A stretch of DNA of 64,000 nucleotides from Psococerastis gibbosa. Its lineage: Eukaryota > Arthropoda > Insecta > Psocodea > Psocidae. Where the stretch lies: positions 12,772,001 through 12,836,000 of the forward strand of contig OZ020485.1 of NCBI GenBank assembly GCA_963971405.1, read 5' to 3'. The notes under the pieces were generated by a model. That model searched no databases. It saw nothing but the letters and a program-made list of their open reading frames with translations, and was not told the DNA's origin. The position numbers were made by a program, and so were the translations under genes. Below, one piece after another: positions 6,331 to 58,475 of the stretch; within the stretch, counting starts at the first letter, position 1, and each line of letters begins with the position of its first letter.

Positions 6331-6409
6331 GCACTAATTTAAAAAGCGCTCATTCAGTAGCAACAGGCTGTTTACTAATTATAAAAATCTGACAAAGAAA
6401 AATCCTATT

Positions 6410-7138
6410 ATGAATCCTACTAGTTTCATAACCAAAGAGCTATCAGCAATGTCATTGCAAGAGCAAAAAGATAATATTGAACTTATTACAGGAGACGATT
6501 ACGTTAAAAACATAAAGTTGATGTCTGGAACCGAAGATGAATGCTCAGCTATGATGATCCATACATGGTTGAGACGACGAACTTGTCCCTTTCGCCCAGG
6601 TCAAAACAATCTTGAAAGCCCATTGACAAAAATTCTGAGCAAGCCTGAAGTCCCCTACGAGAAGAAAATCTACAAAGGTTTGGACAAGAATCTAATAGAA
6701 CTGATGGACGTGGACAACCCCAACACTTTGAAGCCCATTACTTGGTACTTACTAAAGAACCCAAATGACGGAAGTGATGAGCTGAGATATAAGGTGGCTT
6801 CGAAATTCCATGATATGAAACCATCTCCAGAGTCTATATATCCATCTGCCTCTGCCCCCGATTGGACCTGGCCCCAAGCCAAATTTAAGAAAGGCCCTGA
6901 TGAATGCTTTGAGCTTGGGCTAGAAATAGTCAACAACTTTGCCCCTGTCCTCGATGAACTAAAAAGAGATAGAGAGCAGCAAGAAAAAGCCAGAAAAAGA
7001 TTTTGGAGCCAGATTTCATCGCTTGGTTCTCCTCCAAGGGGAGATGGGCTATCTGTCAAACTCCAATTCAAAAGTCCTCAAGGGTTTGGCTGTCTCAAAG
7101 ATCCCCAAGATAATCAGTCTTTTAAGTCAGATCCATGA
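6410..7138 (+). CDS. Intact 242-residue ORF of unknown function
   Basis: The frame is open from an ATG at 6410 to a TGA at 7136 without interruption, unusual for this decayed region. The protein is hydrophilic, has no signal peptide or membrane segment, and is charged. The C-terminal third holds a short helical stretch (LKRDREQQEKARKRFW, about residues 181-196). A Trp/Pro-rich patch (SAPDWTWPQAKFKKGP) lies in the middle. I do not recognise a family. The position between piggyBac and P-element remnants suggests a processed host-gene copy, a capsid/nucleocapsid-like protein of an unknown element, or a fragment of an element-borne gene. No intron signals or poly(A) tail are evident. Confidence 0.4.
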   Translation: MNPTSFITKELSAMSLQEQKDNIELITGDDYVKNIKLMSGTEDECSAMMIHTWLRRRTCPFRPGQNNLESPLTKILSKPEVPYEKKIYKGLDKNLIELMDVDNPNTLKPITWYLLKNPNDGSDELRYKVASKFHDMKPSPESIYPSASAPDWTWPQAKFKKGPDECFELGLEIVNNFAPVLDELKRDREQQEKARKRFWSQISSLGSPPRGDGLSVKLQFKSPQGFGCLKDPQDNQSFKSDP

Positions 7139-9722: not shown

Positions 9723-9801
9723 GTCTCCAGATTCAGATCCAGACGCGGATGATAATGACACGAGTAATGCCGAGGAAAATAGCAGTCCCAGTGTTAAAAT
9801 A
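9723..9801. repeat. Left copy of a 79-bp identical direct repeat
   Basis: This copy is identical base for base to 11412-11490. It lies in an AT-balanced transposon remnant (PDSDPDADDNDTSNAEEN in one frame) and is followed by an A-rich tract. Because the sequence outside the pair is contiguous transposon-like DNA and the inside is GC-rich foreign-looking DNA, the pair is best read as a target-site duplication. Confidence 0.8.
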
Positions 9802-11411
9802 TAAAAAAAAAAAAATAAGTAGACGGACAGGGTTCCCAATCTTCTTCTTGTTAAAGCGCCGCCTGGTAGCCGGGCACCCATCTTTACAAACGACGAACTT
9901 CGCTAGCAACGGGATTTTCTAATCAATCAACATTCATCTGGACCAGAGCATGGAGGACCCCTCCCGCCAGGACCCTCCCCCCGACGGAGAGGGTCCGGAG
10001 GCAACACCTCATGCGCCCCAACGCGGGGAAAGCGTTAACACCGCGGATGCTTTCCAAGCATTACGAGCAGCCTTTGCCCCCTCCTTCCCGAGGACGCCCA
10101 CATCAATCACATCGCGAGTAGTCAATCCCGGCCTCCTGGGCCCCAACAAGGTTGGGCCTAGTGCCGGTTTCCAAGGCACCGATGCCCCCATCGCTGCGTA
10201 CAATTCTATGTCCAACGCAGAACGACTGGCCATAGCCAGTTCCTTCACCCTCCCGAGGGAGGAACCCGCACCTCAAGAGGAAGACATCTTCGCTGCAGTT
10301 GTGCAACAAATGCACAGGATGGATGCTTCCCCGCCGTCAGTGGTGGGTACCACGTCCCTAGCCCAGCATGACGTCCCCGAACGTCAAGGCCCTAGAACAT
10401 GCGATGATCCATCAGCATACACGAGACAGGTGCCAAGGCCCATAACCCGTGCTTACACCCGTAGAAGGGCCGAAGCCTCTACCAGCAATGATGACTCATC
10501 GCCCCCGGGCGCGATCACCGTATCGAGTGATGGGGACTCTTCCCCCCCACAACCACCCCATAAGAGGGACAGGTCAAGGGGTCCCGATGACAACCGGCCC
10601 CCTACTCCAGTCGACCCTAGTGAGGCTGACACGATGCCTGTCCCTGAGGTTAAGCCACTCTGGGACGGACATGTCGCAGCCTTCGGAAGACAAGTAAAGA
10701 CGGACCTCACCAGGTGGACTAACACCAGTCCTTCAGAGCTGAGGGATATTGAAGACCCCCTCACAGCTCTTTTATTTCACGTTAAAGGAGTGAATCGGAC
10801 GAAACTAGGAACGTCCCATTTTGGCCCCGTCGCCAAGGCTCTGTCCGACGAGTTGACACGGTCTCTAGACGAAGGGGGTCCCGTACCCCCGCCGAAGGAT
10901 AAGCAGTACCGTCCCAAAACCCAAAAAACCGGAGAGGACGATGAACGGGCAGGTACTTCTAAGAGCAAGAAGTCCACTCCTGTGGATAAGAAACCCGATC
11001 CCCGCCTGAAACGCCAGAGTATGGTTAGGTACATAGTGGAGAAGGTTAACGCTATATTACATCCAAGCGAAAAATACCCCCTTTCCCGAACATTGGGGAT
11101 CTTACGTATGGGGGCGTCCAACCCGACCTTCGTTCGAGCCTTTGCGACCCAATTCCTCGCAAAATCAAGTTACGGCTCGTTAGGTCGGGAGAAGGGAGTG
11201 GGCCCACAAAAGGTGACCCTCCGGTTGTGGGCGGGCTCCGCGAAGTCCGTGCCCCGACTCCCCTTGAAAGACTCGCCACCCTCTGCCACCATCACAGTCC
11301 TCGATGACTTCATTGAAAATGGTGAGGATAGTTTATCTCCAGTAAACCCGGAAGATAAGGTGGCACACCCCGCCCAGGATTCCGACGACGAAGCACAGCG
11401 TACCGTAACCA
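9802..11411 (+). mobile_element. GC-rich insert with a 79-bp target duplication; possible non-retroviral viral element
   Basis: About 1.6 kb with base and codon use very unlike its neighbours (many CCC, GGG and CCG codons). It is bounded by two identical 79-bp direct repeats. It has no inverted ends, LTR or reverse transcriptase, and almost all of it is one long open frame plus a short leader. That is what a reverse-transcribed foreign mRNA integrated by LINE machinery would look like. An A-rich tract is next to each repeat, but I cannot tell an mRNA poly(A) from target sequence. The identity of the two repeats implies recent integration. Confidence 0.6.
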
Positions 11412-11491
11412 GTCTCCAGATTCAGATCCAGACGCGGATGATAATGACACGAGTAATGCCGAGGAAAATAGCAGTCCCAGTGTTAAAATAA
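9950..11491 (+). CDS. 513-codon Pro/Ser/Asp-rich ORF, viral phosphoprotein-like in character
   Basis: An uninterrupted frame from an ATG at 9950. About the first 487 codons belong to the insert; the last 26 or so read through the right-hand 79-bp duplication in a fortuitous frame. The N-terminal half is low-complexity and probably disordered (runs of Pro, Ser, Asp and Arg; SSDGDSSPPQPPHKRDRSRG). A basic linker (about residues 325-355, many Lys) follows. A more ordered segment of about 90 residues comes next (from KRQSMVRYIVEKVNAILHPS). An acidic tail with SPVNPEDK and DSDDEAQ ends it. Disordered acidic halves around one folded domain resemble phosphoproteins of negative-strand RNA viruses, but no homology was recognised. 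It could also be a gag-like or unknown viral protein. The intact frame suggests youth or selection. Confidence 0.45.
   Translation: MEDPSRQDPPPDGEGPEATPHAPQRGESVNTADAFQALRAAFAPSFPRTPTSITSRVVNPGLLGPNKVGPSAGFQGTDAPIAAYNSMSNAERLAIASSFTLPREEPAPQEEDIFAAVVQQMHRMDASPPSVVGTTSLAQHDVPERQGPRTCDDPSAYTRQVPRPITRAYTRRRAEASTSNDDSSPPGAITVSSDGDSSPPQPPHKRDRSRGPDDNRPPTPVDPSEADTMPVPEVKPLWDGHVAAFGRQVKTDLTRWTNTSPSELRDIEDPLTALLFHVKGVNRTKLGTSHFGPVAKALSDELTRSLDEGGPVPPPKDKQYRPKTQKTGEDDERAGTSKSKKSTPVDKKPDPRLKRQSMVRYIVEKVNAILHPSEKYPLSRTLGILRMGASNPTFVRAFATQFLAKSSYGSLGREKGVGPQKVTLRLWAGSAKSVPRLPLKDSPPSATITVLDDFIENGEDSLSPVNPEDKVAHPAQDSDDEAQRTVTSLQIQIQTRMIMTRVMPRKIAVPVLK
11412..11490. repeat. Right copy of the 79-bp identical direct repeat
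   Basis: This is identical to 9723-9801. It is followed by an A/T-rich tract (11491-11521) similar to, but not the same length as, the tract after the left copy. Confidence 0.8.
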
Positions 11492-11599
11492 AAAAAATAA
11501 AAAAAATAAATAAATAAAAAGGCATAAGTAAAGTCATTTTTGGAGGTATTGCCAAAAGTTGAATCTTATTACTGTAGAGCGTCTTCTTCCAAGCTTTAT

Positions 11600-11837: not shown

Positions 11838-12108
11838 CATACATTAACTATATTGATGATGAATTATTATTATTTATACCGTATAATTGTAAATTTCAGA
11901 TTGATGATAATGAACCTCAAACCCCGGGCTTAATGGCCGACTGCGTTCAACATGACCTTCAATTTAAAATTGTTCCTAATTCAGGAATTGAGATTGACAA
12001 AGCTGAAGATGAGGATGAAGATTCTTCGGTGCATACAATTTGCGGAAGCCAGGAGGGTTGTCATAACGTTACGATGTGTCCAATTCTGAACCACCATATC
12101 TTACTGTA
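11838..12108 (+). pseudogene. Short open frame of unknown origin
   Basis: An open frame of roughly 88 codons follows the hAT tail (reads YIDDELLLFIPYNCKFQIDD, later an acidic patch EIDKAEDEDEDSS). It looks like coding sequence because it is open and acidic, but no family was recognised. It is probably part of a decayed transposase. Confidence 0.3.
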
Positions 12109-12770
12109 GGACCGATATATACCACAAAGACGTTCACACGTCTTACTCTTGTGCACGAAACTGTTTTGGAACATATCCATAAATTATGGATTCGAGGGGA
12201 AGATGAAATAGTTAGGTCTCCAATGGAAATGGAAACTTTCTGGGTATCATTGAGCTCGTTGCTCAGTATGATACTTTCTTGGCCGAACATCTCAAACTCT
12301 ATGAGAACAAAGGCAAAGGTCATACAAGTTACCTTTCTTCTACAATCTATGAAGAACTCATTGGAATTATGGGGAAAACAATGAGGGAAGAAATAGTAAA
12401 TAGAGTGAAAAGCTGTAAATATTTTTCTATATCTGTTGATTCGACGACGGACGAGGGGCATATTGATCAAATGTGTCAAGTCTTACGGTACCTCGAAGGA
12501 TTTACACCGACAGAACGTTTCTTGACATACATGCCAAATCAAGGACATAAGACAGCTGAAATGATGGAAGGGATTACGAAATTTCTTGCTGACACATCAA
12601 TAGACCTAAATAACTGTCGATCTCAGTCATACGATAACACAAGTGCTATGAGTGACGAATTTGGTGGCTTACGCACATTAACATTAAATATAAATAAGCT
12701 GGCCTTGTGGGTTCCCTGCTGCAACCATTCGCTTAAATCTTGTTGGGACTGATGCGATGGATGAACCCAT
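12076..12770 (+). pseudogene. hAT-like (ZMYM1/DUF4371 type) transposase remnant
   Basis: The best piece (12279-12752) reads AEHLKLYENKGKGHTSYLSS, then REEIVNRVKSCKYFSISVDS, TTDEGHIDQMC, and a block ending NCRSQSYDNTSAMS. This is the DUF4371 region of ZMYM1-like hAT proteins; the Asp of SVDST is part of the catalytic core. Upstream, 12150-12270 carries the preceding segment in two frames (GEDEI, then NGNFLG-IIELVAQYD after a shift), so it is frameshifted. The copy stops after CCNHSL, and no dimerisation domain follows. Confidence 0.8.
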
Positions 12771-12923
12771 TGAAATTTTTGGTATTTCAAATTATAATTT
12801 ATAATTGCTTCAGCTATGGAAAGCTCCATCATACTGGAGGGATTTAGGGGAAGCCATCATACCCATGGGGTGATAATTATATGATGGACTCATTAGTAAG
12901 CAATACACACTGTCATTTTAACA

Positions 12924-14090
12924 TTGGCTACATGTGACTCAACACTGGCCAATCAGCATAGGGAAATAATGTATTTCTTCGTGCATGTTCTTGCAGGAGA
13001 TGGTGACAGTTCGGTGTATAAGACCCTTCTACAGGCCCGTCCTTATGGCTCCTCTGCTGTCATTGAGAAGATCGAGTGCGGGCTTCACCTTCTCAGAAAT
13101 ATGAGGGGCAAAGTGATTGATTTGAAGACCTTTAAGGTGCCTAAAGCTGCCTCTGCTCAAATCCCAAAGAAAATGATGGCAACGCTAAAGCGGCTTATTT
13201 CTTCTTCTGCCCAGAGAATTTCTGTTGCAGTGACTAAAGCTGCCCAGCATTGCCGCACTGAAAACGGGACTTCACAGGAGAAAGAGGGAAGATTGCAAAA
13301 AGGATATAGGAAATATCCAACTTCATCTTTTTGGCAGGCTCTCGGCTTGCAGGTAAGTTCAGGAAGGGAAATTTCCTGCATATTTGTGATTGCCATAACA
13401 ACATCCATTCTTCTATCTTTGAGTAGCTAATTTATATAGTGGCAATAACAATAAAAGGGTTTTGAATATTACTCCTGATGGCGATTCATTTCAAGTCATG
13501 CCTTTCAGTATATTATTCCGTATAATTACCGTTTTAGGTCATACTTCTGCAATGGCGTAGGGCAGAACGGAAATATTGATTTTGTAGACGACCTAAAGAA
13601 GATTGGCTTGTTCTCGGAGTTGACGGTTATTATGAGCAGAGTGAGCGCCAATGCTAGGAGCATTCTCCTCCATCAGAATACCAATGCCCTCGAAACACTC
13701 AACTCGATGGTGAACAAGTTGATTGAGGTGAGAAAATTTGAAAGATCATTAAGATATGCATAATGTCGATGTACGCATTTTATTCACCTGTTGACACCAC
13801 TAATTTTTAAATTTTTTAGGGAAGAGAATTTGTCATTCAAGGCGTGGCAAGTACGTGACTCGAACCAGGTGCTCACTTGCTTCCTTCAATTCCACGAGAT
13901 TGGCAACAGGCTTGCAACACACAATGCAATTGGACAGTCCAGGTGTGTACATCTAATCCCCACATTTACTTATCCAGGTTCTGTTAAATGTACGATACAA
14001 TAATAAATTGATCTATAACATATCGGTATTCTTATTTCAGGAAGTCAAACCAAGAAGTATGGGGATAGAAAAATCTGGAACGTTGAGAGA
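12924..14090 (+). pseudogene. Mutator-like transposase remnant with intron-like gaps
   Basis: The first part (12924-13352) reads VLAGDGDSSVYKTLLQARPY and EKIECGLHLLRNMRGKVIDL, matching the core of arthropod Mutator-like (MULE) transposases. It ends in FWQALGLQ at a consensus splice donor CAG/GTAAGT. A second exon-like block (13538-13728) reads GQNGNIDFVDDLKKIGLFSE and ETLNSMVNKLIE, then GTGAGA. A third (13819-13941) follows TTTTTTAG and carries GREFVIQG. A last block after TTATTTCAG at 14040 reads SQTKKYGDRKIWNVERLKKR, a basic tail. Frames do not all join cleanly, so it is probably dead. The capsid-like element starts immediately after it and may have inserted in it. Confidence 0.7.
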
Positions 14091-14093
14091 TTG

Positions 14094-16292
14094 AAGAAGC
14101 GGAAGCGGCACCCGCGTATGGCGCGCCCACGACGCCCTTGAACCGGTGCATTTTGGGGATTATTCGGTCGTAACGGACCTTTCCACTGATCAGGGCTTCT
14201 GCTCAGTTCCAATTGACCAAGAGGAAGAAGGTGATTTTATATCTAGCTTCCGCGATGGGCTGCCGACGCCGATGATCGTGTCACTTAAGTGGCCCCGATA
14301 ACGGGCATTGGTAGCTATACTAGTAGGCGCACCATAGGCGGAGGGCTCCATGCCCCCGTATTCAATCCGGGAGCGGTAATCCACTACTTCCCAGCGGCCA
14401 TCACGCCTATCACGGGTGCCATGTTGGCTACCAGCCCATCAGTAAGGTGGGAATCCAGTAAATGGCTGGGCAGAATAAGCGAAACCAATCTGTCTGCCTT
14501 TAAGAACGGTGGGGTCATAAACGAACGCGCTGTACATTCCGCCATCGTGCCCTGGCTCCAATATATCAACCCGGCCGATCTCAGGAACGTATCTGGGCTG
14601 GTAGATCTGTCTCCCGATATATACGATAATATGGGGTTTTATGCTAAAGGTATATGGCTAGCGTTGGCCCAAGATCATACAACGTACGTTGGGGGAGTAA
14701 ATGGCAATAACGGGATAGGAGCTATCGCATTCCCCCAAATAGGGATGAACATCGCCCCCGCTCCCGGAGCTAGCTTATATCTGGCTTTGGAGACCGAAAT
14801 CCGTAGGGGAGCGCTAGTATTGCGGGAAGGGAAGGAGTTCTCGGATGCGGAGGTTCTAATTATACAGTGGTTAGCCCAGTCAGGCCGTCGGCTCAATGTA
14901 GCTGCAGGGCAAGTTGCGTCACATATGATGGCGCTGGACTGGCCCGCCATCCCTATATGCGTCATGCATTGGCGGGCTGCCGCGATACCGTTACCAGGAG
15001 CCGCTGATGTATCCCCCCCAACAGCTCTGGGCTTTCATGCGCCGCATAGCTAATGCGAGAAATGAACAGTCGGCATATCAGCGAGCTCTATATTGGGTAA
15101 TGGCTCATAGCGGTCTGCGTTTGGCAGAGGCTGTCCCAGCAGGCCCCCCTCCTGTATATGGGCATGTCTTCCCTAACTTTTCAACTGGGCATGCACACAT
15201 CCCGATGCCTTTCTTTCACAATGTGCTGTACTGCGCATTGAAGATCTTCCCAGCTACATCCCCGCAAAGTATTCTAGATAGTGATGCTTGGGATTCACTT
15301 AGCAATCAAGGCCGCGTGCGCTTAACCACACTCTTCCAGGCGTGCTACAACGCATTCTTTACAACTATGACGGCCAGTCAGGATATAACGCTGCAACACT
15401 TACTGGCCTACCAAGTAAACGTGGCCCCTAACATCTTGCCGGGTAATCTGAACCCACTAATGACTTTAGTGACAGAAACGTCAACACCGCCGGATGAGGC
15501 GACGGGCGCATGCTTGTTAGTAGCTCACCCCCTATCGGGGTTTTCTAGGTTCATGGGTACAAAGGTGCCCTCATGCACATTGTGGGGTGGGAAGTATGGA
15601 TCAGGGGCTCCAGGTGGAATAGTCCTTGCTAACATCCAAAACGGCATTGCGGGCAGGGAATTGGATCGTCCGCCGCAATGGCACAGCCCAGCCGTTGTGG
15701 ACGATTTTCTAATGATCAGGCCTCGAAATGGGCATGGCCAGGTTACACCACCACCGCGGACTTTACACGCGAAGTAATCCAGCTAGGGAGAGTGGCTCGC
15801 AGGGGCTGGCACTCTTGAGGGGCAGTTCGTCGAATACAGCATACTGGCCCACAATGTCTTGTGCCAATACTGGGAGCTGGATGGCAATCGGGTCGACGAT
15901 CTGTACCAACGGGCCCCTGGGTTCGGGGACGCGCCTGACTTGGAATATGGAGCGGCTGTTGTCCCCCACCTGACTTTTGGGCAGCGAACTTCGTACATCA
16001 ACCCTGTTCAGTGACCAGTTACGATTGGGTTGATATGACAGTCAACTGCCCAGCATTGCTCCAGGCTCAAATGAACGCCCCTCTTCTGAGAGCAACAGTG
16101 GATTGGGGTACTAAGCTACTGGACGGAGTAGGCTTGGTCCCCTCTCGAGTGCAACGCCAGCCGGGATCCTATCTGGGATCATCGACCACCCAATTTGCTG
16201 GGTTTATAAGGCGTGCACCATCGACATCGGCAGCGGTCCCGTTTTCCGAAGCGGCTCCGTTGGCTAGTAGCGGGGCAGGGGCAGCCCAGTAA
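14094..16292 (+). pseudogene. Endogenous totivirus-like (Victorivirus-like) capsid gene, decayed
   Basis: About 733 codons' worth of a single capsid-like protein, the usual size of Victorivirus capsids, spread over frames by at least five frameshifts (about 14285, 15010 in a C-run, 15735, 15815 and 16012). Pieces include VWRAHDALEPVHFGDYSVV at the N-terminus, FNPGAVIHYF, GGVNGNNGIGAIAFPQIGMN, VVDDFLMIRPRN and LTFGQRTSYINPV. The C-terminus is Ala/Gly/Ser/Pro-rich and ends GAGAAQ, as in victoriviral capsids. GC content and codon use are higher than the surroundings. The stop codon overlaps the next start as TAATG. Capsids build the particle of double-stranded RNA viruses; here it is a fossil without coding potential. 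The call relies on architecture, composition and remembered family resemblance, not on an alignment. Confidence 0.7.
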
Positions 16293-16465
16293 TGGCTGCA
16301 CACCTCAAGCCACCAAGAGGCCCACTAGAATTGCCCGTCCGCGTTCTAGCGTGGGCCTCCTCCCCCGATAGCTGGGGGGAATATCCAGCTAATGAATATC
16401 ATACACCACCCAGCCTTGTAGCCACCCAACATATATCCGACTCGAAGGACCATGTTGAGGCGTAA
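16292..16465 (+). pseudogene. Truncated start of the second (polymerase) ORF of the totivirus-like element
   Basis: An ATG at 16292 overlaps the capsid stop (TAA at 16290-16292). It opens a frame of 57 codons (begins MAAHLKPPRGPLELPVRVLA, ends DHVEA) closed by TAA at 16463. In victoriviruses the polymerase is translated after termination-reinitiation at such an overlap. Only the N-terminal leader is present, and no polymerase motif remains. The right boundary of the viral insert is therefore near 16466-16497. An 8-base match (TTGAGAGA) at 14083 and 16498 is a weak candidate target duplication. Confidence 0.6.
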
Positions 16466-16970
16466 GTAAGGTGAAGGTAACAGACAACGGCAGAGGCTTG
16501 AGAGAGACTAAATTCTTAATTTAAAAATTAAGAACCTTAAACTATTGTACTTAAAATCTAACACACTAAGATTAAATTCCTTACAAGCTAAACATTTAAC
16601 ACTATTATATACATGGGGTTACAGGCCTGCTGTGTGTGGTCGCTAAACATGAGGGGACCCTTTGCTGCAGGGGCGGCTCCAGCCATGGCCTGATGGCTGA
16701 TTTGGATTTTGTGCGAGGCAATGTAGGCCCGCACACCCCCCCCCCCCCCCCCCGAAAACCTTTTCTGAAACCGTCCCTGGAAGAGACAGATTTCTTATTA
16801 AATTTTATTAAAGAGACAGATTGAAACAGATGATGAAGCAGAAGAATTGGATACGAGCGTCTGTACTCCATCATGGGGACCATATGTTGGCAACCATAAA
16901 GTGTTTTCCTAAACAGGGCAAGGTGGAATTCAGAATCCCAACCTGACTCCATCGCCAAAAGCAATTTATC
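16466..16970. other. Non-coding junction with an 18-C tract
   Basis: No gene. A poly(C) tract of 18 bases sits at 16736-16753, preceded by GGGGCGGCTCC. A short perfect inverted repeat (TTCTTAATTT...) lies near 16513-16536. A fragment at 16830-16960 could be coding remnant but no family was recognised. Confidence 0.5.
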
Positions 16971-16971
16971 G

Positions 16972-17240
16972 GGAGTGTCAGAGTGCGGGTTTACGCTAAG
17001 AAGTGCTGATCGCTACCAATGCCATTTACTGGGATCATGATGATAATTAATAAGTAAGTCATTGGTATATGGCGTTCAAAGGGCCAACAGGCTATGTCAA
17101 CTTAATGACACGCCATGGCGAAGGATGGACACCCTACAGGATATCGGCCTATATTTTATCATACGTTAATAAAATAGTAGCTAAAATGACAAACCAGTTG
17201 GGAGTTGACCCATTATGACTTATCCTCTTAATTCTATATG
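16972..17240 (+). repeat. Copy 1 (5' part only) of an ISL2EU-like transposon family
   Basis: About 240 bases match 18270-18445 and 36895-37150 (blocks AGTGCGGGTTTACGCTAAGA, CACGCCATGGCGAAGGAT and GGATATCGGCCTATATTT in the same order). It stops matching after the ACCCATTATGACT block. Unlike copy 2, the target CTCTCTTACAAC portion is missing here. Confidence 0.7.
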
Positions 17241-17913
17241 CTATGATTTATTCGACGGCAAACAGTCTGAAAAAAAGGTTGAAACGTCCGAAAGTCGGAC
17301 CGGTTATTTAAATTTTTTTAACCAGGCTTTGTTTGGGACATGACCACCACTAGTTTATCAATAGCATTTTTCGAGGAGAATGAACTTTTGTTAAAAAGTG
17401 ATAATATTGATGAATATAAAAATAAATTTCTGTGAGCTAAAAAAATACAAGCATTGGCCAGCCTATTTGCGTCTGTTGGCTTCCCAACTATCACGGATGT
17501 AAGGAAACTTTTTTGTTTGTTTCTTGTACCCAATTTCCCTTTAAAAATAGGGAACTCGCGACGTTCACGCTCCTAGCAGTTAGCATTACAAGGAGAAATT
17601 TGAAAAGTGAACGGAAATATGTGTCTGGCGATCTGAGTATTAATAAGCTCTGGTTAGAAATAGAAATATATATATTGTACAAATACAGGGTTGCCCCCAA
17701 TTACAAAGTACAAAATAAAAGTGTGAATTGATTATATAGATACAGTGATTACTTGATCGGAAATGTAGGTACAGAGAAGAAAATTAATCAAAAAAGTTTT
17801 TCCTTACATGTATGATCATCAGGCAGGACTGAATTTCAAGGTTAAAAGGAGACACTTTCGGATGGTTTTCACTACAAAATTTAACACCGATTTAAGCCCC
17901 CCCCCCCCCCAAA
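17241..17913. other. Decayed transposon-like DNA without a defined gene
   Basis: Short AT-rich open frames occur on both strands but none is supported. A 14-C tract lies at 17897-17910. Confidence 0.5.
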
Positions 17914-18252
17914 ATGGACATGTGCTCTACGTGCCTTTCGTTAACTGAAATAATTTCAGGAGCGAAATCGGCATTTGAAAAAAAAAACTTTATGACCGCC
18001 AAGAGGATCCAGAAGTTAAGAGCGAAGGCATTCTTTACTTTGTTGAAAGAAAAAGCCCCAAAGGAAAGCAACAATGAACGACTACTGAACCTAGTACCCG
18101 AAATCCTTAACCGCACTCTGGTTTTGAATTTAGCACGAGAAGACCTAGACAGGACTTATAGAATCGGCAGGAACAAAATGACAGGGTATGCATGTAGATC
18201 CAAAGAGACTATAGCCAGCAGCACAAGCTTGTTCGCTCGTTCCTATGCATAA
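17914..18252 (+). pseudogene. Chimeric 112-codon fragment, LINE ORF1-like at its end
   Basis: The first part is rich in Lys/Glu (TAKRIQKLRAKAFFTLLKEK) and resembles regions seen beside transposase-like proteins, without a firm match. The end reads REDLDRTYRIGR, like the EDI-R-RIGR motif in the RNA-binding ORF1 of arthropod LINEs. It probably joins pieces of two elements. A real host gene is unlikely. Confidence 0.35.
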
Positions 18253-18260
18253 TTTAATTA

Positions 18261-18462
18261 ATGAGATCGGGCGTGTCACAGAGTGCGGGTTTACGCTAAG
18301 AAGTGCTGATCGCTATCAATGCCATGTACTGGGATCATGATGATAATTAATGAGTAAGCCATTGGTGTATGGCGTTCAAAGGGCCAACAGGCTATGTCAC
18401 CTTATTGACACGCCATAGCGAAGGATCGATACTCTATAGAGTAGTTTGGATGTGATAACTCT
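18261..18462 (+). repeat. Copy 2, left part, of the ISL2EU-like transposon (split by the errantivirus)
   Basis: This matches 36891-37088 closely (from ATGAGATCG to GATAACTCT). The family continues at 27626 after the retroelement. The last four bases CTCT (18459-18462) are the target duplication of that insertion. Confidence 0.85.
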
Positions 18463-18884
18463 TGTAATGTGTATGATTTAATCAAACTATCTTAAGCATA
18501 CTTTACATACATATTTGTAGACCCACAGATACTTTTCCACTCTGATATATTCTAATCTGTATTTACTATTTACTCCATACTTTGGACAGTCCTATGGACA
18601 ATTTAACTTATCTTCTGTATTTTTTCCAGTGAAATAACTTTTCCACTCAGATATATTCTAATCTGTATTTACTACATACTTTGGACAGTCCAAGGGACAA
18701 TTTGCCTTATCTTCCGTATTTTTTCCAGTGAAAGGTAATAAAAAGCAGAAGCAACTCCCAAAAAACTGTCTTCACTCTCTTACTGTTGAACTGAACGTTT
18801 TATTATAAAGTTTATTAATCTCCAGTGTTGTGTTATTACGTTTTTTACATCAACTTGAATAAGCATCGAAGCCCGAACATTACA
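18463..18884 (+). repeat. 5' LTR of the errantivirus-like element
   Basis: 422 bp, starting TGTAATGTGTATG and ending GAACATTACA. It contains two near-identical internal blocks (from CTTTTCCACTC to TTTTTTCCAGTGAAA, about 95-100 bp each). Polymerase II initiation would lie in the second half (TCACTCTCTTACTG region), but I cannot place it exactly. Confidence 0.93.
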
Positions 18885-18886
18885 TT

Positions 18887-18904
18887 TGGTGGCAACGGTG
18901 GGAT
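18887..18904 (+). promoter_or_regulatory. Probable primer-binding site
   Basis: TGGTGGCAACGGTGGGAT begins two bases after the LTR; TGG is the complement of a tRNA CCA end. The cognate tRNA was not identified. Confidence 0.6.
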
Positions 18905-18977
18905 CTTCGCGTAGCTTCTGAAGTTCAAGTGATTGAAAACAAGAAACACTACTGGACAATTCTCACAATACATCAAG

Positions 18978-19000
18978 ATGTATCTCTTATATCTGTGAGT
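18978..19000 (+). promoter_or_regulatory. Upstream ATG and splice donor predicted for env mRNA
   Basis: An ATG at 18978 opens a short hydrophobic frame that runs into the perfect donor GTGAGT at 18995-19000, before the gag start. The donor leaves two bases of a codon. Joined to the acceptor ending at 25031, the env frame is exactly in phase. Errantivirus env is known to come from a spliced RNA. Confidence 0.65.
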
Positions 19001-19068
19001 ACTTAAGCAAATTCTTCCTCCAATTCAAAACTTTAATTCATATCCAATATCCAAAACACTAGTCTACA

Positions 19069-20070
19069 ATGTCAGTTAACGGAGACGATGTCCCGGATGA
19101 GGGATTTAATCAATCTCGAGTGCCAGTCAGCATCCTGAAGAGCCTCATCCCAAAATTCCAAGGAGACCGGAATTCACTCCATGAGTTTATAGATAACTGC
19201 GAAGAAGCAGTTAAACTCGCAACAGATGACCAACAAAATATTATATTTAGACTTATTAAATGTAGTATCTCTGGTAATGCAAGAATGCTCACCCGAAATA
19301 GAACGTTTAATGACTGGCAAAGTCTAAAAGAATTTTTAATAGAGGCCTATGGTGACAAACGATCACACGGTCAATGGCAGCTAGAGCTGAACTCTTGTCG
19401 TCAAAAACCTGACGAACCCATAGTTCAGTACTCAAATCGTATTGAAAAGTGCCTAATAAAACTTATTAATTCCTTAGATGATGATTCAACTTGTAGCGAA
19501 AAGGAAGCAAATTGCAAGCTTTTACAAAGACAAGCTCTCAATGTTTTCATTTCTGGTTTATGGTCGAATAATATAGCCATTTTGGTAAAAACACGACAAC
19601 CAGTCACATTAGAAGATGCAATTAGTATCGCACAAGCCGAAGAATCTGAGATTAAATCCAAAGCTGAAATAAGTCGTTACAAATATCAAACTCAGACTCC
19701 TCAAAACACTAAATCTAAACAATGCACTTATTGTAAAAAATCTGGACATTTGATTTCGGAATGTTATCGCCGTCAAAGCAACAGTCCTAACACTCCTAAT
19801 CCGCAGAAACCAATACATGTAATTAACTCAGGAAATCTCAACATAACACCAAACCAAAATAAAAAAATCTGTAATTATTGCAAAAAACCAGGACATCTTA
19901 TACAAGAATGCCGACGTAGGGCATATAACAATATGAAAAAACAACAGTCAACTTTCGATCAAAATCAACAATCCTCAAGTTCTTTAAACTCCCAACCATC
20001 TCGGAACAGCGCCAATTCTCGGGATGGACAAACAATAAAGGCGCATTTTCAAAACAACAACAACGGCTAA
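19069..20070 (+). CDS. gag: Gag polyprotein of the errantivirus-like element
   Basis: A 333-residue Gag from the ATG at 19069 to the TAA at 20068. The N-terminal two thirds is a capsid-like helical region (KFQGDRNSLHEFIDNCEEAV and YGDKRSHGQWQLELN, as in retrotransposon Gag/CA). Two CCHC zinc knuckles follow: CTYCKKSGHLISEC (about residues 222-235) and CNYCKKPGHLIQEC (about 269-282). The tail is Asn/Gln/Ser-rich. It packages element RNA in virus-like particles. The frame is intact. Pol lies in the -1 frame and overlaps the end of gag. Confidence 0.9.
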   Translation: MSVNGDDVPDEGFNQSRVPVSILKSLIPKFQGDRNSLHEFIDNCEEAVKLATDDQQNIIFRLIKCSISGNARMLTRNRTFNDWQSLKEFLIEAYGDKRSHGQWQLELNSCRQKPDEPIVQYSNRIEKCLIKLINSLDDDSTCSEKEANCKLLQRQALNVFISGLWSNNIAILVKTRQPVTLEDAISIAQAEESEIKSKAEISRYKYQTQTPQNTKSKQCTYCKKSGHLISECYRRQSNSPNTPNPQKPIHVINSGNLNITPNQNKKICNYCKKPGHLIQECRRRAYNNMKKQQSTFDQNQQSSSSLNSQPSRNSANSRDGQTIKAHFQNNNNG

Positions 20071-34696: not shown

Positions 34697-35380
34697 GATG
34701 GTCAAGTTTTCGAAGATTGGTTTTTTAAGTGCATGCTTCCTGTTTTATCTCAACAAGAGGTCCTCATTGGAGACAATCTATCATCTCATATACGTATGAA
34801 AGTTTTAGAAGGTTGTAAAGAGAATAATATAAAGTTTATATGCTTTCCCCGAATACAACACACATCTTGCAAGTTGCAGCCCCTTAACGTGGCCGTTTTT
34901 AGGGGCATGAAGAGGCACTGGAGGCGCATACTCGACGACTGGAAGCAAATTCCATACGGGTCGAGATGTGGAACGATTCCAAAAGATCAATTCCCCAGGT
35001 TGATACATGATTTGTGGCAAACCATTGATCCCGAAGGGGTCATCATTAAGGCAGGGTAAAAAAAAACTGGAATTTGTCCACTTGATCCACAGACTGTAAC
35101 ATCACAAATGCCGAATTCACTAGTCGAAAGCGATACGATGAAATCCACGAAGGACGTTGTAGGCGATGCCTTTTTGTACAAGCTAAAAACGCTGAGACAA
35201 GATGTAACCAGTAAACGAAATAGGATACGAAAAAAATTACATGTCCACGCTGGCCAAAGTGTGACTGCAGAGGAGCTAGCTGATGCTATATCTGAACCTG
35301 AAAACCCGGATTCAAAAGAAACGAATACTACAGAAGAGCTAGAAAGAAGGAAAGGCGTCTGGAGGCCTTTGGAGCTTTGC
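34697..35380 (+). pseudogene. pogo/Tigger/Jerky-type transposase C-terminal fragment (DDE_1)
   Basis: The frame begins GQVFEDWFFKCMLPVLSQQE and continues LIGDNLSSHIRMKVLEGCKE, NIKFICFPR, LQPLNVAVFRGMKRHWRRIL. This is the block with the second Asp and the LQPLD-AVF motif of pogo superfamily transposases. The conserved HLLQP position reads CKLQP, a substitution. A stop at 35057 precedes a further 126-codon stretch (35108 on) with the usual basic tail (RKKLHVHAGQSVTAEELADA). The N-terminal helix-turn-helix and first Asp are absent. Confidence 0.8.
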
Positions 35381-35700
35381 CTGGTCCTCCACCGTTTTCG
35401 AACACTAACCGGTTTCCTGCCGATGCGGAATATGTTGATCTCGATGGGGTCATGGTTCCTCACTTTGAGCAGATGTTGCAGGCAATAGACTTGCCTGACC
35501 GTGCCATGGAACGGGAGGGTCATAATAATTGGGGTCTTTCCGATGCGAAGAGGTCATTTGATGTGGCCTTTTCGAAAATTGCCGGAGCTCTTAGAGCCCT
35601 GGACGAGCAGGCTCTTCTTCGGTTCGGTATTTATACGCGGGCTTCTTTTGAGCATCATTTTTCTTTGACGTGGGGAAACCCACCTCCTGCTGTTCCGTAA
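35377..35700 (+). CDS. 107-codon ORF of unknown function
   Basis: The frame reads VDLDGVMVPHFEQMLQAIDL and FGIYTRASFEHHFSLTWGNP to a stop at 35698. It overlaps the pogo tail in another frame. It is protein-like (mixed hydrophobic and charged, no low complexity) but no family was recognised. It may be an exon of an adjoining element. Confidence 0.3.
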   Translation: MPGPPPFSNTNRFPADAEYVDLDGVMVPHFEQMLQAIDLPDRAMEREGHNNWGLSDAKRSFDVAFSKIAGALRALDEQALLRFGIYTRASFEHHFSLTWGNPPPAVP

Positions 35701-36295: not shown

Positions 36296-36889
36296 TTCGA
36301 GCGGATCATCCTACAGAGACTCAACAAATTTCTAGACAAAAGGAAGATTCTCAGGCCTGAGTAGTTTGGATTCCGACCAGGTCATAATACTCAGCATCAG
36401 CTTATCCGATTGGCAGAGCATGTGCTTAAGTTCTGGGGCCAAAAGAAGAAGACAGGAGCTGTTCTCCTCGACGTAGCCAAGGCGTTCGATTCTGTCTGGA
36501 CCCAAGGGCTCATCAAGAAGTTGATTGACCTTAAGCTGCCTGACAAGTTGATTCATCTCCTTCTCTCATATTTGACGAATAGGACTCTACGAGTTGACAT
36601 CGATGGCACTCAGTCGGATCTTTTTCCCATCACGGCGGGTGTCCCGCAGGGCAGTATCCTGGGTCCGGTCCTGTTTCTACTCTACATCAATGATTTACCA
36701 GGGATTGAAGTTGAACTGGGCATCTATGCAGATGACACCATCATATATGCTTCTTCCCAGAGAGTCAAAAATATGCAAAGACCTAAACCTAAATCGAGCC
36801 CTGGAGGCCATCCAGCTTTGGTGTACAAAATGGCGAGTACTGATAAATGCAGTTCAAGAGAATTCTCCACACTATGCATATTTCAATGA
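36296..36889 (+). pseudogene. jockey-like LINE reverse transcriptase fragment
   Basis: The frame starts FERIILQRLNKFL, passes an in-frame stop at about 36359, then reads FGFRPGHNTQHQLIRLAEHV, GAVLLDVAKAFDSVW, TAGVPQGSILGPVLFLLYIN, and the catalytic box YADDTIIYA near 36725. After the box it jumps out of the RT, so the thumb and C-terminus are lost. It immediately precedes copy 3 of the ISL2EU-like family. Confidence 0.85.
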
Positions 36890-36890
36890 A

Positions 36891-38590
36891 TGAGATCGAG
36901 CGTGCCAGAGTGCGGGTTTCCGTTAAGAAGTGCTGATCGCAACCAATGCCATTTACTGGGATCATGATGATAATTAATGATTAAGCCATTGGTGTATGGC
37001 GTTCAAAGTGCCAACAGGCAATGTCACCTTATTGACACGCCATGGCGAAGGATCGATACTCAATAGGGTAGTTTGTATGTGATAACTCTCTTACAACACC
37101 GGGGGCCCGGATATCGGCCTATATTTTATCATACGTTGAAAAATTATGACTAATCCTCCCAATTCTATAGGCTATAATTTATTGTATTTCTGTTGTTCCT
37201 TTTAGTATTAGCAAATGAGAAATCATCGCAGTCGCAGTCACCGTCAGTCGCTCATTTCAGGTCAAGCCCCGGCTTATAACTGCCAGTTCTTCTTGGAAAC
37301 CAGATACCATGAGCCGGGGTCCATAGAAAACGCCTGAAAAACAGTCAAGGGAGCCTCGACGCGGATGTCAAATTCGGACTTCACAAAATACTGATGAGAG
37401 TAACTCAAACAGCGATTTTTCAGCAAACGACCTCGCTGAATTAATGGAAATATCAGCAAGAAGAATGCGGCTGATAGTCTTGACTAACCCTAACAAATAT
37501 TTAGGGAGTTCGAAAGGATGCATATTTATTACAAGAGACATGTCCCTTCAGAATGTAGCAATTGTTCTGCGGCGTAATAGGCTCTGTAGAACCTTGGACG
37601 AAATCGGAGACAACTTCGGGCTTTCCCAGCAGCAGGCCAGTGCAATATTTCACAAGCCCAAGGTCCATTCTAAACGGATGCAGCTCATATTGGCCCCCAA
37701 GTGAGAAAATAATTGCGACCCTGTCAATTTTAAAAGTTTAACTTGCATTTTAGACGCTTTCGAAATCGATATTCAAAGGCTGACGAATCCAGTCCATCAG
37801 GCAGCCACATGGTCTCAATACAAAATATGTAATACAACCAGGTAGATACTGGTTTCGTGGGTGTCGAAAGGGTAAGGAGGTCGGATTGAGGATCCAGGGA
37901 TTGTAAATCAGTCCGATTTCTTAACTAAATTACCGACAGGTGGCTTAGATATGACAGATCGTGGGTTCAAGACTCTGGAACCCTATCTCTTATCAAACTA
38001 TTGCCGTATTGCCCAATCCCCGAGCGGGTTTTTAGATGCTGGTGCCACCATGACTCGGGAAGAGGTATTGCGGACTAAGCAAATTACCGTGCTCCGCATT
38101 CATGTGGAGCGCGTTATAGAGCGCATAAGGGAGGAAAAGTTGCTCTCCATGCAATCTTGTGCCAGCAGCGCAGAATCAAGAGCCGTGCTGGAAGAGGGCT
38201 TGCGTTTAATGAGTGAGGACATCAGCATGTCTCAAGCAGTGCCTTCTGTATATACTTTTGATGCGATCAGCCTGAGAGGTGAGAGCAGCTCCGATGGAGA
38301 CGACGGTTCTCATGAAGGACAAGATCCCTACCTTGTGAGATTCGAGTAAATGAGATGAACTAGGACCCGTCTGATAAGGACACAGACCGACTAACCCTCC
38401 TCCCACAACCTGCCCTAACGCCTTTAATCAGAGTTCCCATGCTTCTGCTGGCGTGAGCTTGACAGATCCCAGATGATCAAGAAGATGGAACCACGTCTCA
38501 GGGGTAGCCCCCAACTACGGATGACGCAGTTACTTCACCCCAAATGTATATGACACCTAAATTATATTCCAATGCAAGTTATTTCCATTA
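36891..38590 (+). pseudogene. Copy 3 of the ISL2EU-like transposon (transposase remnant)
   Basis: The longest copy, holding the site that is empty here but occupied by the errantivirus in copy 2 (37081-37100). 37444-37704 encodes the helix-turn-helix: LQNVAIVLRRNRLCRTLDEI, then GDNFGLSQQQASAIF. 37951-38349 encodes the C-terminal DDE block: MTDRGFKTLEPYLLSNYCRI, MTREEVLRTKQI, HVERVIERIREEKLL. The two pieces do not join in one frame, and the DDE block's first Asp is not visible. A short acidic end follows. The order resembles PIF/Harbinger-ISL2EU transposases; superfamily assignment is moderately sure. Confidence 0.75.
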
Positions 38591-44367: not shown

Positions 44368-44546
44368 TCCTCGTTATAACCGAAATTAGAGGATATGGAA
44401 AAAACTGGGCTTGGCGGGATTCGAACCCACGATCTACGCCTAACCGGGGTGTCGTCCAGCCGTTAAGACGACGCCCCGGTTAGGCGTAGATCGTGGGTTC
44501 AAATCCCGCCAAGCCCAGTTTTTTCCATATCCTCTAATTTCGGTTA
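44368..44546 (+). repeat. Palindrome made of tRNA-like sequence
   Basis: Two arms of about 79 bases are near-perfect reverse complements around a 12-base centre (CAGCCGTTAAGA). Plus-strand positions about 44453-44517 fold like a tRNA: D-arm region GTCCAGCCGTTAAGAC, anticodon arm ACGCC-CCGGTTA-GGCGT, and T-arm GGGTTCAAATCCC; the acceptor stem is poor. The loop CCGGTTA would place GGT (Thr-like) at the anticodon, but base 33 is C instead of U. A TTTTTT run follows. The left arm is an inverted copy of the 3' two thirds of that tRNA-like body. It is a SINE-like or tRNA-pseudogene element, not a functional tRNA. Confidence 0.7.
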
Positions 44547-58335: not shown

Positions 58336-58475
58336 GGATATATTGAAAAAGTGGGCTTGGCGGGATTTGAACCCACGAACTACGCCTAACCGGGGCATCG
58401 TCTTAACCGCTGGACCACAATCCCACAATCCCGCCAAGTCCAGTTTTTTTCATATATCCTCTTATTTCGCTTATA
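58336..58475 (-). repeat. tRNA-like SINE/pseudogene, copy 2
   Basis: On the minus strand it folds as a tRNA. Acceptor half GGGATTG pairs with CAAGCCC (one mismatch). D-arm GTCCAGCGGTTAAGAC, anticodon arm ATGCC-CCGGTTA-GGCGT (Thr-GGT-like, C at position 33), T-arm GTGGG-TTCAAAT-CCCGC. A-box and B-box matches (TGGTCCAGCGG, GGTTCAAATCC) are good. It is wrapped in a larger inverted repeat (GGATATATTGAAAAAGTGGG left, mirror at 58443-58462), like the palindrome at 44368. Confidence 0.7.

Follow-up and report, generated by a model that had tools for sequence, protein, structure and literature searches.

The stretch from 14094 to 16465 in the window analysed here (64,000 bases, C2:12772001-12836000 of a host genome of 409 Mb in 68 contigs) has been proposed to be the remnant of a totivirus-like capsid gene that retains a stop/restart junction of the victorivirus type. 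This raises the question of whether a viral capsid gene was once copied into this locus and, if so, from which kind of virus. The reading that we favour, to which we assign a probability of about 0.62, is that the element is a fossil of the capsid gene of a toti-like virus (Ghabrivirales), that is, a non-retroviral endogenous viral element, and that the live virus most likely used stop/restart.

A toti-like fossil in an arthropod genome is in itself a kind of object that is already well documented. According to the cited passages, a screen of 1188 arthropod genomes recovered 5686 toti-like fossils in 593 species (PMC10636211), so that the rarity in arthropods put forward in the original prediction is too strong a claim for toti-like fossils in general. 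Those of planthoppers are described as usually broken by frameshifts, and most of them are reported to give small RNAs of 24-29 nt (PMC10636211); ticks also carry such fossils (PMC10675110), and one in the black soldier fly is described as holding both capsid and polymerase parts (PMC9231314). The element is like these arthropod ToEVEs, which are fragments of capsid and/or polymerase genes in DNA form. It differs from them, as far as they are described in these sources, in that they were found through their similarity to known toti-like viruses, whereas the element has no detected named relative and keeps its junction. Insect toti-like viruses with related fossils make up the clade of Leptopilina boulardi toti-like virus as presented in PMC9231314, which can be likened to the element by description, not by sequence. 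No arthropod fossil with a preserved stop/start junction was found in the literature surveyed by titles, abstracts and passages.

Reading frames, composition and searches

The element lies on the + strand at C2:12786094-12788465, among transposons within a contig of 52.6 Mb. Its features, named according to the capsid reading, are the following.

14083-14090, no strand: 8-bp direct repeat, left copy; may be a target-site duplication
14095-14301, +: open frame, putatively encoding the capsid N-terminus (true start not located), codon score indecisive
14289-15053, +: open frame of 254 codons, putative N-terminal half of the capsid
14929-15777, +: open frame of 282 codons, putative central capsid, matched by a relative in the same genome
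15633-15818, +: short open frame, codon scores indecisive
15787-16014, +: open frame, putative C-terminal capsid
15939-16292, +: open frame of 117 aa, putative capsid C-terminus with an Ala/Gly/Ser-rich tail and a TAA stop
16271-16465, +: open frame containing the 57-codon start of the downstream frame
16290-16294, +: TAATG stop/start overlap (TAA 16290-16292, ATG 16292-16294)
16292-16465, +: truncated downstream frame (57 codons from its start), -1 relative to the capsid frame, presumed polymerase gene, ending in TAA at 16463-16465
16498-16505, no strand: 8-bp direct repeat, right copy; may be a target-site duplication

The predicted chain of about 733 codons broken by at least five frameshifts was recovered, with five frame changes mapped and with runs of open codons longer than expected from shuffled sequence. 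Among 1000 dinucleotide shuffles of 14094-16465, in which the longest stop-free run had a mean of 137 codons, runs of at least 254 codons appeared in 3 and runs of at least 282 codons in 2, and in none of them did the second-longest run reach 254 codons. Taken together, the runs of 282 and 254 codons exceed chance. The 254-codon frame is probably a genuine part of the gene up to about 14980 and the 282-codon frame from about 14990 to about 15720, while the frame at 15633-15818 was probably read between about 15720 and 15818. When a codon model was trained leaving out one piece at a time, the chosen frame was the best of the three forward frames in all four pieces, although some reverse frame outscored it in one of the four; for 15720-15815 and for the N-terminal stretch, the frames score too similarly for a choice. 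The same applies around 15775-15786, where the alternative to a frame change is a pair of stop codons in one frame, codon scores favouring neither reading. Pooled, the four interior pieces (586 codons) have high contents of Ala (12.1%), Gly (8.9%) and Pro (7.7%), whereas Lys (1.4%) and Cys (1.2%) are scarce. The element contains three homopolymers of at least six bases, one of them near a frame change, and assembly error might conceivably account for all of the frame changes.

As had been predicted, base composition sets the element apart from its surroundings, with a G+C content of 0.54 versus 0.37-0.42 in kilobases 12001-14000 and 17001-19000, but this is not unique in the window, since 10001-11000 reaches 0.575. 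The G+C-rich region is bounded at about 14090 and about 16500, and another such patch, separate from it, is found at about 16600-16800. The 8-bp direct repeat close to these edges is a weak mark of insertion, because two random 60-base stretches of the window shared an 8-mer in 4.9% of 5000 draws. The right edge lacks a poly(A) run. A Mutator-like transposase gene adjoins the element, with its match at 12900-13427.

The capsid profile match to which the original prediction looked did not appear, as five queries from the element matched 0 families in Pfam at E <=10; the best reading is still that of a toti-like capsid fossil. At E <=1 the sole Pfam match was FrpC, obtained with the N-terminal piece at a sub-cut-off E of 0.28. 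Relatives were likewise absent from NCBIfam (four pieces), PHROGs (two pieces), PDB chains compared by sequence, IMG/VR, phage records, GTDB contigs (one piece) and plasmids (one piece). A large protein set gave 1935, 4299 and 209 candidates, none of which matched at E <=0.01, 10 and 10, respectively. Pieces were searched separately, and not every piece was run against every collection. The absence from these collections says little about arthropod toti-like viruses, because there was no totivirus positive control and the coverage of such viruses in the collections is not established.

A relative in the same genome

With the 282-codon piece as the only query and a threshold of E <=0.001, the genome of 409 Mb yielded one other match (G000:C3:4325467-4326069, minus strand, 28% identity, E 8e-4), so that the count of two places is a lower bound. 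This relative sits on another contig, inside a frame of 649 codons without a stop, and found no match in Pfam, PDB or IMG/VR. In a pairwise BLASTP comparison, it aligned with the 282-codon piece at 25% identity over 213 residues (E 3e-10); the score was 47 bits, and of 500 shuffles of the relative, 302 produced an alignment at all, the highest score among them being 34.3. The piece at 14289-14978 matches the relative just upstream and in collinear order (35% over 46 residues, pairwise E 0.009), and pieces after about 15720 gave only chance-level scores. Since this sole relative is itself unnamed, the words capsid and viral rest on layout and composition, from which a viral capsid origin of the element appears likely.

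Two motifs shared by the pair are separated by 183 codons in the window element and by 187 in the relative. The motif TLWxGxYGS lies 237.7 codons ahead of the stop in the element and 237 codons ahead of it in the relative, and this equal distance is the best argument for regarding the TAA at 16290 as probably a genuine stop and thus the true end of the capsid protein. For the same reason, a decayed capsid gene with its junction intact is the best reading of the locus. The corresponding part of the original prediction, a totivirus-like capsid fossil with a preserved junction, gains from the relative and from its equally distant stop; the assignment to Victorivirus, discussed below, is not supported.

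In the element as in the relative, the next open frame lies at -1 with respect to the capsid frame, and the G+C content is high compared with local DNA. However, the relative has no TAATG, its two frames overlapping by 106 bases (L002 817-922), and only 15.6% of its last 32 residues are Ala, Gly or Pro; the pair therefore shares neither the overlap signal nor an Ala-rich tail. The relative is flanked by direct repeats of 205 bases, identical at 203 of 205 positions (L003 3644-3848 and 6480-6684, G000:C3), which belong to transposon-like sequence and make an unusually long flanking duplication. Their near-identity suggests that the relative was inserted recently. A long flanking duplication like that of the relative was absent from the window in a self-comparison (repeats of at least 60 bases, E <=1e-5). 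An A-rich stretch follows the second frame of the relative. The first ~80 codons of its 649-codon frame are transposon-like sequence that is found again nearby, and hence the viral part would be shorter than 649 codons.

The stop/start overlap and the downstream frame

The TAATG junction is present as predicted: at 16290-16294, an ATG that overlaps the TAA of the capsid frame opens 57 more codons. The predicted Ala/Gly/Ser-rich tail was also found, Ala, Gly and Ser accounting for 65% of the last 20 residues before the stop, and Ala, Gly and Pro for 60% of these 20 residues and 50% of the last 32. Taken alone, the junction is weak evidence in view of how often such sequences occur in the window. 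On its + strand, 97 of 3568 stop codons (2.7%) lie in TAATG and 344 in ATGA; on both strands together, TAATG ends 7 of 137 open frames of at least 80 codons, and 14 of 197 TAATG sequences open at least 57 codons. The 57-codon frame is not confirmed by codon usage, because another forward frame outscores it. No RdRp match was obtained in Pfam for the forward frames of 11900-19099 at E <=0.01, and the element stops 57 codons into the next frame. RNA folding at the junction was not above that of shuffles (MFE z -0.18 to -0.35), and a crude scan for pseudoknots upstream of the overlap gave a candidate than which 18% and 11% of 200 shuffles did no worse in the two stretches considered.

How the downstream frame was expressed bears on the first rival explanation. 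It holds that the element derives from the same kind of viral capsid gene, that ribosomes frameshifted into its downstream frame and that TAATG is a coincidence; it thus overlaps with our preferred reading on what the element is. The -1 position of the downstream frame at both loci and the 106-base overlap of the relative, which lacks TAATG, speak for frameshifting. However, the frames overlap by only 22 bases in the window (16271-16292), and no canonical slippery heptamer occurs either in 16240-16300 or in L002 801-950 of the relative. We consider frameshifting unlikely. From the overlap, the lack of a canonical slippery heptamer and the conserved position of the stop, we infer that stop/restart was most likely the mode of expression.

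The overlap had been taken as the known signal of victoriviruses. The signal itself is there, but overlaps of this type have also been reported outside Victorivirus. Victoriviruses are described as generally using AUGA or UAAUG together with an upstream pseudoknot (PMC3597494, PMC6631646, PMC13013214), and a stop/start overlap is also ascribed to EbRV1 (PMC3597494) and to river orthototiviruses (PMC12779748), both of which can be likened to the element by what these sources describe and not by sequence. Beyond these viruses, UAAUG is reported to be used by a hypovirus (PMC6631646) and by influenza B (PMC3542737).

Origin of the element and its surroundings

The host genome was also searched with the polymerase family RdRP_4 (PF02123), which comprises totivirus-type polymerases and some others. 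One place matched (C21:257576-258169, E 4.6e-11), compared with 0 of 14 control genomes, these counts being lower bounds. It lies in an open frame of 610 codons (L004 445-2277, + strand, G000:C21), which matched RdRP_4 at 1.1e-12 and RdRP_1 at 1.5e-7 in Pfam and nothing better than E 0.23 in the PDB. No relative of the capsid pieces was found at E <=0.1 in the 10 kb around this locus, and the polymerase and the element are therefore not linkable. The 610-codon frame is followed by a frame with a Baculo_FP_2nd domain, and its first part may be the end of a non-LTR retrotransposon frame.

Use of UAAUG by the hypovirus and influenza B leaves room for a second rival, in which the element would be the capsid gene of an RNA virus outside Ghabrivirales that had a large, Ala/Gly/Pro-rich shell protein and an overlapping next frame. 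In its favour, no sequence link ties the element to any Ghabrivirales capsid. Its size, the capsid-first layout with a -1 next frame and the missing poly(A) at the right edge nevertheless fit toti-like genomes best, and the same genome holds a polymerase of the RdRP_4 family, so that we regard such an origin as unlikely. Ghabrivirales is the probable order of the virus; a toti-like family would agree with the layout.

A third possibility is that no virus was involved and that the two loci represent a host or transposon gene of low copy number, decayed at one locus and still open at the other. The surroundings of both are rich in transposons, the frame of the relative opens with its transposon-like codons, and no viral match was obtained anywhere. 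Against this, only two places were found in 409 Mb (one piece, E <=0.001, a lower bound), their sequences are 28% identical, and each locus combines a G+C content above that of local DNA with a subsequent overlapping -1 frame. This explanation appears quite unlikely to us.

With Victorivirus, the element has in common a possibly similar capsid size (about 733 codons with the start not located, beside a range of 746-780 aa given in PMC3597494), the UAAUG overlap and Ala-rich last residues (the last 20-32). The differences concern the capsid profile, the tail and the junction. Totivirus_coat (pfam05518), which is reported in one victorivirus capsid (PMC13013214), gave 0 matches with five queries at E <=10, a result to be read with the provisos that the presence of this family in the Pfam copy is unconfirmed and that broken pieces score lower. 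In the passage of PMC3597494 on capsid composition, the C-terminal ~130 residues of victorivirus capsids are Ala/Gly/Pro-rich, with 52% in HvV190S and 17-24% in four other genera. The last 130 residues of the element, counted over two pieces kept apart, contain 41 (31.5%), which is above the four other genera and well below HvV190S, and little higher than in the rest of the protein, where stretches of 130 residues have 20.8-30.0%; a short tail thus stands in place of a 130-residue region. The junction, as stated above, gave no structure signal above shuffles. Judging from these sequence features, the element would resemble Victorivirus only in the overlap and in the outermost residues of the tail. 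A true victorivirus fossil (Victorivirus, Pseudototiviridae), left by a fungus-type virus that once infected the host or arrived with a fungus, for which a planthopper toti-like virus described as grouping with Victorivirus and thought to be fungal in origin (PMC10636211) would offer a parallel, is therefore very improbable, and membership in Victorivirus as originally predicted was rejected on the unmatched Totivirus_coat, the low C-terminal Ala/Gly/Pro content and folding at shuffle level.

Under the preferred reading of a toti-like capsid fossil, the element would extend from about 14090 to 16497 and represent a DNA copy of part of a toti-like dsRNA virus, comprising a nearly whole capsid gene (~733 codons) with its stop codon, followed by 57 codons from the start of the next gene, presumably that of the polymerase. 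The copy would have been made by some reverse transcriptase, inserted beside or into the Mutator-like transposase gene and subsequently broken up by small insertions and deletions. While the virus was live, ribosomes that ended the capsid at UAA would most likely have restarted at the overlapping AUG and thereby produced a small amount of polymerase. The present element would make no whole capsid, and any role it has could be that of a source of transcripts or small RNAs.

The lineage may be an undescribed one whose virus may have used stop/restart. As a tentative extension, which we consider possible but doubtful, the two loci could represent an undescribed lineage of animal-infecting dsRNA viruses with capsids lacking detectable relatives, in which the mode of polymerase expression switched between stop/restart and some other mechanism and the capsid end stayed the same, one copy being old and shattered and the other so young that its 649-codon frame is still open. 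If the preferred reading of a toti-like capsid fossil is right, two deeply different members of a capsid family absent from the databases searched would have entered one genome, a stop/start junction would be recorded in a fossil, and a search of related species for the same insert could show how old stop/restart toti-like viruses are and which hosts they infected.

Several other features of the window were observed. An open frame at 35302-35697 (+ strand) matches the coat protein family of TMV-like viruses (PF00721, E 1.8e-15) and eight PDB sequences at E <=0.01, the best being 'Capsid protein' 8eaw (E 4.9e-9), with cucumber green mottle mosaic virus (2.4e-5) and the TMV coat (6.6e-4) among the others; it is a coat protein gene of a rod-shaped virus in an apparent animal genome. 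At 9923-11491 (+ strand), an intact, G+C-rich frame of 522 codons with no Pfam or IMG/VR match is followed by an A-rich tail. Just upstream, 9723-9821 is a truncated copy of the end of this frame, 96% identical to 11412-11512 and with an A-run, a layout that is as would be expected for repeated retrocopies of polyadenylated RNA. A frame of 266 codons at 6338-7138 (+ strand), with no Pfam match, is possibly virus-derived or a host gene. The segment 18463-27625 is a young Ty3/gypsy-type element whose long terminal repeats of 422 bases are 99.8% identical; it carries a Baculo_F-type envelope gene and seems to have entered another repeat, of which a copy lies at 36872-38575. Judging from this element together with a Pao element and P-element-like genes, the host is probably an arthropod. 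There is also a tRNA-Thr (ggt) gene at 58351-58424 (- strand) and a weaker Rfam tRNA match at 44447-44517 (+ strand).
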